From a virus: 42,273 nt of DNA. The stretch covers positions 1-42,273 of IMG/VR virus record IMGVR_UViG_3300023220_000904; one strand, written 5' to 3'. The translations under genes and the position numbers were made by a program. The notes beneath the pieces are model-generated. The model saw nothing but the letters and a program-made list of their open reading frames with translations. It searched no databases and was not told where the DNA came from. Numbering within the stretch: position 1 is the first letter of the stretch; each line of letters opens with the position of its first letter. This document shows, piece by piece, positions 31,386-41,316 of the stretch.

Positions 31386-32759
31386 TCATGAGAAACCCAG
31401 GAAAAAGCCCATGAGTTTAACCATCAGGGGGTTGTAGACATCCATAAATTTATCGGTTTTTTTACTGATTAAATCATCGAGATAAAGTTTAAGTTCCTCC
31501 TCTTGTCCCGGTTTCAGATGATCGATATCAGGCAGAACCGACCAGACGAATTCCGGGCGTTTTTTAATTTCCAGCAGGCGATATTCGGTATCCCACTGTC
31601 TTTTCTGGTTCCGGTATTCCTCTTCCCGGAGTTTCCCGGTTTCTTCTTTTCGTTTTTTCTGTGCTTTCCGGTATTCATCCAGTTTTTTAAGCAGAAGTCT
31701 GGCGTCTTCCTCCTCAGAGTTCCGCATTTCGGTTTTAAGTAAATCTTCCTGTCGCCGCTCCCAGCGCACGGAATGCCAGCCGTCACGGTAAGCGGCCAGG
31801 ACAGCGGAAACCGGAAACTTCAGATTTTTACCGGAGTCTTGCAGACGTTTTTGATATTCCTCTACCGCCCAGACCGTCTGCCAGACCTGCTCTTCCTTGT
31901 GAGCATAAGTGACCGGGAACTGTCGGCTGAAATCCGAAGGACATCGTAATTTTTTAAGCCGTATAAAGATAGCTTCCTGGACTTTGTTCAGTTCAAGTTG
32001 AACAGGAGGAACGACAGCCCCGTAAATCAGAAATTCGATACCGGCGATCTCCCGTCCGGTTTTAATCATTTTGAATTTGAAATGGGAAGAGGTCTGAGCA
32101 TTAACTTCTTTCTGAGCCGGAACCAGCACTCTTGTTTTGAAATTGTAAGGGCGAGGATAAAGCGTGGATTTCAAACCGAGTTTGTCCCGTAATTCCGGCA
32201 TGGTGTAGAATTTACGGGTCACGTAGCGATTATCGATGATCAGATCATGAAAATCAGAGCGCGGCTCAAACGATTTACAGAATTCCAAAAAACGGATGGA
32301 ATATTCGCTGCGTAAACCAGCTACATCAGAGAGTTTGTAGGTAGAGAAATGAGTTTGAAGCTGAAGCAGATAAGGTCTGAGAGCAGAAGAAACCCTGACC
32401 GAGAGCGTTTCCTGATCCCAGTTGATTTCAGGAGTCTCGATCCAGGCCGGCATACTGAGAATTCTATCCCCGTTTCTGATCGAGGTGATATGCAGAACAT
32501 TACGCTGGAGACTTTCCAGCACTCTGATCATGATTTTTTTTCTGACCTCGACCCGTTTTTTCTTCAGATTCAGAATTTCATTTATCTCGGCAAAACTGAA
32601 GGAGTAACACTGAAAATCAGTATCCTTGGGATGGATTTTGGAAATAACAGTCAGAATCAGCCGCTGCTCATTGAGACCGAGAGCGTACTTGGCTTCAATC
32701 AGATTATGATGTTTGGTGACCAGGACTGTATTGTCGGTTTTTTCTTCTGTTTTTCCCAT
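31386..32759 (-). CDS. Rep_3-family replication initiator
   Basis: 457 aa. The N-terminal half fits Rep_3/RepB initiators: LVTKHHNLIEAKYALGLNEQRLIL, then the winged helix and YSIRFLEFCKSF (usual YS.RLYELLK), and a second winged helix. The C-terminal ~120 residues are an extra highly charged coiled coil. It should bind the iterons at 33178-33263 and recruit helicase for extrachromosomal replication. A long leader (about 420 bases) with hairpins separates the iterons from the ATG. Confidence 0.8.
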   Translation of the reverse strand: MGKTEEKTDNTVLVTKHHNLIEAKYALGLNEQRLILTVISKIHPKDTDFQCYSFSFAEINEILNLKKKRVEVRKKIMIRVLESLQRNVLHITSIRNGDRILSMPAWIETPEINWDQETLSVRVSSALRPYLLQLQTHFSTYKLSDVAGLRSEYSIRFLEFCKSFEPRSDFHDLIIDNRYVTRKFYTMPELRDKLGLKSTLYPRPYNFKTRVLVPAQKEVNAQTSSHFKFKMIKTGREIAGIEFLIYGAVVPPVQLELNKVQEAIFIRLKKLRCPSDFSRQFPVTYAHKEEQVWQTVWAVEEYQKRLQDSGKNLKFPVSAVLAAYRDGWHSVRWERRQEDLLKTEMRNSEEEDARLLLKKLDEYRKAQKKRKEETGKLREEEYRNQKRQWDTEYRLLEIKKRPEFVWSVLPDIDHLKPGQEEELKLYLDDLISKKTDKFMDVYNPLMVKLMGFFLGFS

Positions 32760-33750: not shown

Positions 33751-33791
33751 TTTGTATACAAATAGTATTTATGTATTTATAACTACTATTT
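33751..33791 (+). promoter_or_regulatory. GTATAC-type repeat and dyad between divergent genes
   Basis: TTTGTATACAAATAGTATTTA (first part) and a perfect 8-bp inverted repeat AAATAGTA/TACTATTT with a 16-base spacer. Similar GTATACAAAAGTATTTA-type sites occur at 35599-35615, 39190-39206 and 41300-41316. It lies between the SNase gene and the gene at 33834, consistent with an operator or promoter. Confidence 0.45.
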
Positions 33792-35598: not shown

Positions 35599-35615
35599 GT
35601 ATACAAAAGTATTTA
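35599..35615 (+). promoter_or_regulatory. GTATACAAAAGTATTTA repeat
   Basis: GTATACAAAAGTATTTA lies between the divergent genes 35593(-) and 35674(+). It matches the similar sites at 33751, 39190 and 41300, so it is a plausible operator for an unidentified phage regulator. Confidence 0.45.
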
Positions 35616-35673
35616 ATTGTATTAATTTATATTATTTTCAGTGTAAAACGTATTATTTTTTAAAAGAGGTAAA

Positions 35674-40665: not shown

Positions 40666-40698
40666 ACTACTTACAAAATATTTATTGTATATAAATTT

Positions 40699-40721
40699 AC
40701 GGAGTGTTCAAAGCACTCCGT
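40699..40721 (+). ncRNA. Leader hairpin, copy 1
   Basis: ACGGAGTG and CACTCCGT form a perfect 8-bp stem. The second copy has GCGGAGTG and CACTCCGC: the outer pair has changed from A-T to G-C on both sides, a compensatory change that supports the hairpin as an RNA element. Confidence 0.6.
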
Positions 40722-40804
40722 AAAATGCGTTATATGATGATACGTCCCTCAGGTTTTTAATTAAGGGTATAAACTCATCTATAACATTATTTCTTAGGGA
40801 CCGA

Positions 40805-40915
40805 ATGATACCTAAAAAAGAAGTAAAAGTAAGAGCATATATTCGTTATCGTTTAAGACGATTTGAATATATATCTACTCATTTTCGTAGTCTACCTAGA
40901 TTAAAACTTAGTTAG
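40805..40915 (+). CDS. Arginine-rich micropeptide, copy 1 (36 aa)
   Basis: 36 codons from ATG to TAG, preceded by AGGGA. The product is strongly basic with an AYIRYRLRRFEYI centre and a PRLKLS end; no membrane segment. Compared with copy 2, 32 of 36 residues agree and 8 of the 12 differing codons are synonymous, so both copies evolve as coding sequences. Function unknown; RNA or DNA binding is likely from its charge. Confidence 0.7.
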   Translation: MIPKKEVKVRAYIRYRLRRFEYISTHFRSLPRLKLS

Positions 40916-40927
40916 GTAAATAATAAA

Positions 40928-40960
40928 TACAAACTGCATATATAATGTATGTAGTTTGTA
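40928..40960 (+). promoter_or_regulatory. Inverted repeat ending copy 1
   Basis: TACAAACTGCATA and TATGTAGTTTGTA pair over 13 bases with one G-T, around a 7-base loop. It ends the cassette and is also found in copy 2. There is no T-run, so either a terminator aided by factors or an operator. Confidence 0.5.
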
Positions 40961-41013
40961 TAGAAAATAGTAGAAAATAATACAAATAAATACTTTTTAT
41001 TGTATATAAATTT

Positions 41014-41035
41014 GCGGAGTGTTGAAGCACTCCGC
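41014..41035 (+). ncRNA. Leader hairpin, copy 2
   Basis: GCGGAGTG, six bases, CACTCCGC: perfect 8-bp stem with a shorter loop than in copy 1. See copy 1 for the compensatory base change. Confidence 0.6.
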
Positions 41036-41116
41036 ACATGCGTTATATGATGATACGCCCCTCACGTCTTAATTAAAGGGTACAAACTCATCTATAACAT
41101 TTTTAGGAGCAGTCAT

Positions 41117-41227
41117 ATGACACCTAAAAAATCTGTGAAGGTGAAGGCCTATATTCGCTATCGTTTAAGACGATTTGAATATATACCTACACACTTTCGT
41201 AGTTTACCTAGATTAAAACTTAGTTAG
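41117..41227 (+). CDS. Arginine-rich micropeptide, copy 2 (36 aa)
   Basis: 36 codons, ATG to TAG, with a good AGGAG ribosome site 7 bases upstream. Differs from copy 1 at four residues (Ile2Thr, Glu6Ser, Arg10Lys, Ser24Pro). The core and C-terminus are identical. Not a typical type I toxin, because it is basic and not hydrophobic. Confidence 0.7.
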   Translation: MTPKKSVKVKAYIRYRLRRFEYIPTHFRSLPRLKLS

Positions 41228-41239
41228 GTAAATAATAAA

Positions 41240-41271
41240 TACAAACTGCATATTAATGTATGTAGTTTGTA
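41240..41271 (+). promoter_or_regulatory. Inverted repeat ending copy 2
   Basis: Same 13-base arms as at 40928-40960, with a loop one base shorter. The GTATAC motif next to it recurs at 41300-41316. Confidence 0.5.
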
Positions 41272-41299
41272 TACAAAATAATACAAATAAATACAGTTT

Positions 41300-41316
41300 G
41301 TATACAAAATAGTACT
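41300..41316 (+). promoter_or_regulatory. GTATACAAAATAGTAC repeat
   Basis: GTATACAAAATAGTACT lies downstream of cassette 2, near the 3' end of the small terminase gene. It is another member of the GTATAC-type motif set listed for 33751, 35599 and 39190. Confidence 0.4.

Follow-up and report, generated by a model that had tools for sequence, protein, structure and literature searches.

Twin folded-RNA units in a viral genome belong to a widespread micropeptide family that often adjoins defence genes

Two imperfect tandem units lie on the plus strand of IMG/VR virus record IMGVR_UViG_3300023220_000904, antisense to the genes on either side, which encode a terminase small subunit (42061-41375) and a methyltransferase (40598-39231). 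A sequence-only reading had noted this orientation and suggested that the units might control the packaging genes or act as a leader-peptide switch, and the question that the locus raises is what such a pair of structured, peptide-coding repeats does there. Repeat analysis of the window, by which we mean the whole 42,273-nt stretch that was analysed, placed the two units at a spacing of ~312 bp, with 89% identity over 137 nt in one repeat family (D1) and 88% identity over 67 nt in another (D4). Both units have the same parts in the same order, that is, a 5' hairpin, a leader, a micro-ORF and a 3' inverted repeat (Table 1).

Table 1. Positions of the parts of the twin units and of the associated palindromes in the window
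Feature	Position	Strand	Basis or remarks
Unit 1, folded RNA region and micro-ORF 1	40690..40968	+	MFE -78.4 kcal/mol, z -7.96; repeats D1, D3, D4
Unit 1 5' hairpin, 13-bp stem	40696..40724	+	predicted fold
Unit 1 short upstream ORF, MRYMMIRPSGF	40725..40760	+	sequence; probably untranslated
Unit 1 predicted hairpin, ribosome-site region paired to first ORF codons	40787..40826	+	fold prediction
Micro-ORF 1, MIPKKEVKVRAYIRYRLRRFEYISTHFRSLPRLKLS	40805..40915	+	36 codons; PHROG 21154 (E 1.3e-4); purifying selection
Unit 1 3' hairpin, 17-bp arms (40927-40943 / 40945-40961), 88% complementary	40927..40961	+	inverted repeat I3 and fold
Operator-like palindrome TTTGTATAGAAA, 1 mismatch	40955..40966	.	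motif count
Unit 2, folded RNA region and micro-ORF 2	41005..41280	+	MFE -87.3 kcal/mol, z -8.18
Unit 2 5' hairpin	41010..41039	+	inverted repeat I10 and fold
Unit 2 short upstream ORF, MRYMMIRPSRLN	41038..41076	+	sequence; probably untranslated
Unit 2 predicted hairpin, UUUUUAGGAG...CCUAAAAA, masking ribosome site and start codon	41100..41131	+	fold prediction
Micro-ORF 2, MTPKKSVKVKAYIRYRLRRFEYIPTHFRSLPRLKLS	41117..41227	+	36 codons; PHROG 21154; AlphaFold, predicted strands 6-9, 12-16, 19-23, 26-29
Unit 2 3' hairpin, 14-bp arms (41239-41252 / 41259-41272), 93% complementary	41239..41272	+	inverted repeat I7 and fold
Operator-like palindromes TTTGTATACAAA (two), perfect, 31 bp apart	41266-41277, 41297-41308	.	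motif count
TTTGTATACAAA palindrome, divergent promoter region elsewhere in phage	33751..33762	.	motif count

Some of these parts differ from their first description. The 3' inverted repeat exists, but its length of 13 bp was an understatement, as the arms extend over 14-17 bp. The promoter-like box was not borne out: we found no sigma-70-like site at the expected plus-strand promoter place, and the count of promoter-like sites was at the level of shuffled sequence (5 found vs 4.7 expected). The short upstream ORF that begins MRYMMIRPS is present in both copies, with different ends (11 vs 12 codons) and with no evident ribosome site before it in either unit, but it is not a feature of the family, since none was seen by eye in the leaders of relatives. 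The ribosome site proposed for the micro-ORF is AGGAG in unit 2 and a weak CUUAGGG in unit 1; in the predicted fold of both units this region pairs with the first micro-ORF codons. We also noted that the complement of the unit 1 5' hairpin resembles a minus-strand terminator.

The micro-ORFs encode a conserved peptide. Twelve codons differ between the two window copies and 8 of these 12 changes are silent, in agreement with the earlier count; with a pN of 0.065 and a pS of 0.40 for this pair, the peptide is under selection, and pN was lower than pS in all 201 usable pairs within the family. The earlier statement that the peptide has no family was nearly right, as its sole match was PHROG 21154, annotated as function unknown (E 1.3e-4 and 8.3e-5 for the two window peptides), which was matched by 35 of the 35 members tested, window copies included. 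What is common with PHROG 21154 is this match to a protein profile; the PHROG records the protein only, and the RNA architecture, the spread to plasmids and chromosomes and the defence neighbourhood described below lie outside it. A known protein family was rejected as an identity for the peptide: neither Pfam nor NCBIfam gave a match at the curated cut-off or a credible one, and the PDB held no convincing relative.

The family core reads V.V..Y.R.R.G..E.V..H.RS.P, and V3, Y6, R8, E15, H20 and R22 of its 22 residues are invariant in 60 units, which were picked by a pattern that fixes most of these positions. With the window peptide and 13 relatives as input, AlphaFold2 predicted four short beta strands (pLDDT 86; 94-98 in the core), and the Arg-rich peptide has no hydrophobic helix. 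From its composition, with the invariant Y, R, R, E, H and R on the predicted beta sheet, nucleic-acid binding is plausible. The top viral fold match was H0092, an uncharacterised 40-aa protein of Enterobacteria phage VT2-Sa, with a probability of 0.99, an rmsd of 1.0 and 42% identity over 26 columns, although the Foldseek E-value was only 0.4. Related copies in lambdoid phages sit between cI and N in the immunity region; those that we examined differ from the window copies in having a longer N-terminus and in being single.

The peptide search that the sequence-only reading had proposed revealed a broad unnamed family on plasmids, prophages and chromosomes. The window peptide as a tblastn query gave weak plasmid relatives, and an E. 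coli copy then served as a stepping stone to the broad family. Plasmid hosts on the gammaproteobacterial side are Escherichia, Raoultella, Klebsiella, Acinetobacter, Halomonas, Vibrio, Alteromonas, Rahnella, Pseudomonas and Xanthomonas, to which Croceicoccus (alpha) and Limnohabitans (beta) are added; other copies are found in lambdoid phages and bacterial chromosomes, and most copies are unannotated. Twin copies occur in Pseudoalteromonas as well. In profile searches of samples that each include a centre genome chosen for having the element, the peptide was found in 25 of 299 Pseudomonas species genomes (about 8%), in 6 of 149 Acinetobacter genomes and in 8 of 369 genomes from the class to which Acinetobacter belongs. 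One copy, on a Salmonella prophage-plasmid (L025, 3001-3087), is decayed, as its ORF has a premature stop. A cyanobacterial hit (L031) may be contamination, because it is nearly identical to Pseudomonas copies, and a copy on a Synechocystis plasmid (L024) is perhaps contamination too. We found no description of the family in the open-licence literature, and the main text of a Ribo-seq paper on E. coli O157 does not mention the peptide.

The micropeptide does come with a structured leader, as had been proposed: both window units fold far beyond dinucleotide shuffles (z about -8), and 0 of 200 shuffles was as stable as either unit. Across 48 representatives of the family, the mean folding z was -3.3, and ORFs folded better than their synonymous recodings (mean z -1.1, p 2e-7). 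No Rfam family matched at the gathering threshold, by which we rejected a known RNA family, and the sub-threshold matches did not cover the units. The PhrS and PesA sRNAs were considered and dropped, as the literature found had no bearing on the matter.

Many relatives have an end-closed RNA, in which a 5' strand in the leader pairs with a stretch 7-25 nt beyond the stop codon. Examples of such strands are GACGGTCCGCCGT/GCGGCGGACCGTC in Croceicoccus and GGAATCTCTCC/GGAGAGATTCT in Acinetobacter, and the pairing is kept despite changes of letters (GAAGACCCTC/GAGGGTCTTC; GTCACTTCC/GGAAGTGAC). Matched 5' and 3' strands scored 22.0, compared to 17.4 for strands from mismatched loci (permutation z 10; 47 nonredundant units, 20000 permutations; p < 5e-5 in the first run), with the pairing clear in a subset, that is, 12 of 47 units above the 99th percentile of mismatched pairs. 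It was not evident in the window copies, where strong hairpins cap both ends. In several loci, as read from the sequence, a -10-like box directly precedes the 5' strand. Taking peptide and RNA together, we regard the family and its RNA structure as real with near certainty.

We searched for a complementary antisense partner in the 500-nt flanks of 45 loci and found none (26.1 observed vs 25.4 shuffled); an antisense RNA that overlaps the module itself may still exist. At six loci (L021, L023, L138-L140 and L143) the stop of a convergent gene lies ~32-41 nt past the micro-ORF stop. The module's 3' end falls between the two stops, and the tail of the convergent mRNA could be antisense to the module there. 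A C4 antisense RNA (Rfam RF01695) was seen near one Pseudomonas copy (L049, 1129-1215).

The relatives that we examined have repressor, defence or recombinase genes as neighbours, in either orientation, and at several loci recombinases are the only neighbours. One repeated close partner is PDC-S06, a RloC/PrrC-like ATPase, which lies at 230-300 bp in seven Pseudomonas loci (L078-L082, L085, L091). It also adjoins the element at a Rahnella locus (L023), at a Klebsiella locus (L143) and in two viral contigs, L107 and L108, where it was recognised from sequence; across these loci the arrangement may be parallel, divergent or convergent. Of the 299 Pseudomonas genomes, the peptide occurs in 25 and the PDC-S06 subtype in 21; they occur together in 7, compared to 1.8 expected, and in each of these 7 they lie next to each other, within ~300 bp. 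We rejected an obligate partnership, however, since about half of the close PDC-S06 genes are without the module, which makes the module an accessory. PDC-M12 (AbiL-like) stands head-to-head with the module on ColE1-like and Acinetobacter plasmids, in four plasmid types, and XRE-M78 pairs (CapH/CapP-like) immediately precede the module on its own strand at six loci, called with HMM support at L090 and L097 and recognised from sequence at L041, L042, L043 and L089. Further neighbours are an RmrA-like gene, AbiD, PD-T7-4, a type VI retron RT, a DUF3800 gene (PDC-M04A), a PD-T4-6-like kinase, a type I MTase (R-M), PD-Lambda-2 and a ThiF/multiubiquitin operon; on one Acinetobacter plasmid (L138, 1658-3779) an HTH gene, the type VI retron-like RT, the micropeptide and the DUF3800 gene are side by side. 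These neighbour families are profile matches, the PDC families are themselves predicted defence systems, and the background of the defence association was measured for PDC-S06 only.

These neighbourhoods bear directly on two of the functions first suggested for the units. That the units regulate the terminase and methyltransferase genes as antisense transcripts is very improbable indeed: they do run on the opposite strand between the two genes and point towards the 3' end of the gene for the terminase small subunit, but they overlap neither coding region, the peptide is conserved, and control of packaging genes was rejected more generally because the relatives examined have no linkage to terminase or other packaging genes and adjoin repressor, defence and recombinase genes instead. 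A leader-peptide switch is likewise unlikely, since the downstream gene is often convergent and there is thus no obvious regulated operon behind the ORF; we rejected attenuation as there is no same-strand regulated gene directly downstream. The placement of the relatives, in either orientation and beside differing defence or immunity genes on plasmids, in prophages and in defence islands, instead shows the module to be autonomous.

We compared the module with known systems of similar anatomy. In type I toxin mRNAs (hok/sok, aapA1/IsoA1, tisB/istR) a small ORF lies in a strongly folded RNA with a hidden ribosome site and 5'-3' long-range pairing, and these systems are located on plasmids and prophages and occur in tandem copies; most, but not all, of their toxins are hydrophobic transmembrane peptides. 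The module resembles them in its small ORF within a folded mRNA, its ribosome site hidden according to the predicted fold and, within the family, 5'-3' long-range pairing, plasmid and prophage location and tandem copies. In contrast, its peptide is basic, predicted to be beta-folded and without a hydrophobic membrane helix, and no antisense RNA was found in the flanks of family loci. Retron ncRNAs, with their paired a1/a2 ends, are similar in having paired ends around a folded RNA and a defence setting, but the family RNA has a conserved coding ORF inside and an RT is adjacent at one locus only (L138), with none beside the window units. Dual-function sRNAs such as SgrS/SgrT, PhrS and VcdRP also combine a short RNA with a small ORF, whereas the family is mobile, defence-associated, folded through the ORF and without an Rfam match.

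Since the anatomy is like that of type I systems, but no antisense partner was found in the flanks and the peptide is soluble and basic, we tentatively propose, at a little under an even chance, that the module is a translation-restrained mRNA for a small beta-peptide effector, serving mobile elements as an accessory immunity or abortive-infection module. The twin units would then represent a mobile micropeptide module (PHROG 21154) in two copies, each a self-contained transcript of ~210-280 nt that folds almost completely around an ORF of 30-36 codons for a basic beta-sheet peptide. The fold would keep translation low or stabilise the RNA; release by processing, by DNA-damage derepression or by infection would allow the peptide to be made, which might then bind RNA or ribosomes and either halt growth of the infected cell or modulate the neighbouring defence system, much like the mRNA of a type I toxin, though with no antisense RNA found in the flanks, or like a module for abortive infection. 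It is possible, if rather doubtful, that these modules form an undescribed class, in which an end-closed RNA has its coding sequence as part of the fold and a mini beta protein acts with or through that RNA; mobile elements would insert such a module next to defence systems of unrelated kinds, where it would be their common trigger, regulator or effector. In the most extreme version of this reading, the peptide could be a minimal RNA-cleaving or ribosome-targeting toxin that works via its invariant Y, R, R, E, H, R set.

The main rival to the effector reading is a shared regulator or accessory of defence systems: the peptide, alone or bound to its own RNA, would tune or trigger the adjacent defence genes, as CapH/CapP- and BrxR-type regulators do for unrelated systems. 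We consider this unlikely, if still to be taken seriously: a single family beside many unrelated systems, the repeated close adjacency to PDC-S06 in several orientations and the head-to-head arrangement with PDC-M12 in four plasmid types all fit it, but the module is optional among close PDC-S06 relatives, lambdoid phages have it without such a system, and the varying orientation argues that it is not a cis leader. A decidedly improbable alternative makes the folded RNA the main actor, as a decoy, sponge or scaffold with the peptide as its binding partner; the structure does span leader, ORF and 3' end, the ORF folds above synonymous expectation and the end-pairing covaries, but the leader sequence is poorly conserved between subgroups, compared to the strictly conserved peptide motif.

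We also considered that the module might be a lysogeny or immunity accessory, that is, a superinfection exclusion or anti-repressor peptide borne by prophages and plasmids. The palindromes of the window bear on this, as TTTGTATACAAA has 4 sites in the window (0.13 expected), 3 of them at the 3' ends of the twin units, and such operator-like sequences may tie the units to a phage regulator in a regulon shared with the 33.75-kb site. A 35-bp stretch at 35605-35639, in another divergent intergenic region, is 89% like 40963-40997. The location between cI and N and the placement directly downstream of XRE-M78 pairs also favour this accessory role, but the module is found as well on small ColE1-like plasmids and on chromosomal islands without phage genes, and we regard the role as improbable. 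The window phage itself is probably a phage-plasmid, because a Rep3-type initiator gene (31386-32759) sits in a tailed-phage genome with a lambda-type portal and a gpA-type terminase. The N-terminal part of its methyltransferase also weakly matches ParB-like proteins. No near relatives of this phage came up when IMG/VR was scanned with the peptides of the two units and with the methyltransferase, and its best terminase matches were below 30% identity.

Because its relatives often adjoin anti-phage defence genes, the module is probably a component of bacterial immunity that has been overlooked, and not a DNA-packaging switch. A gene of ~100 bp, usually missed by annotation, adjoins ten or more kinds of defence genes, known or predicted, across Gamma-, Alpha- and Betaproteobacteria. 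Should it act as an effector or a regulator, published constructs of defence systems, whether they contain the gene or leave it out, may have been misinterpreted, and it would connect RNA structure, micropeptides and phage immunity in a very small system that is easy to test.
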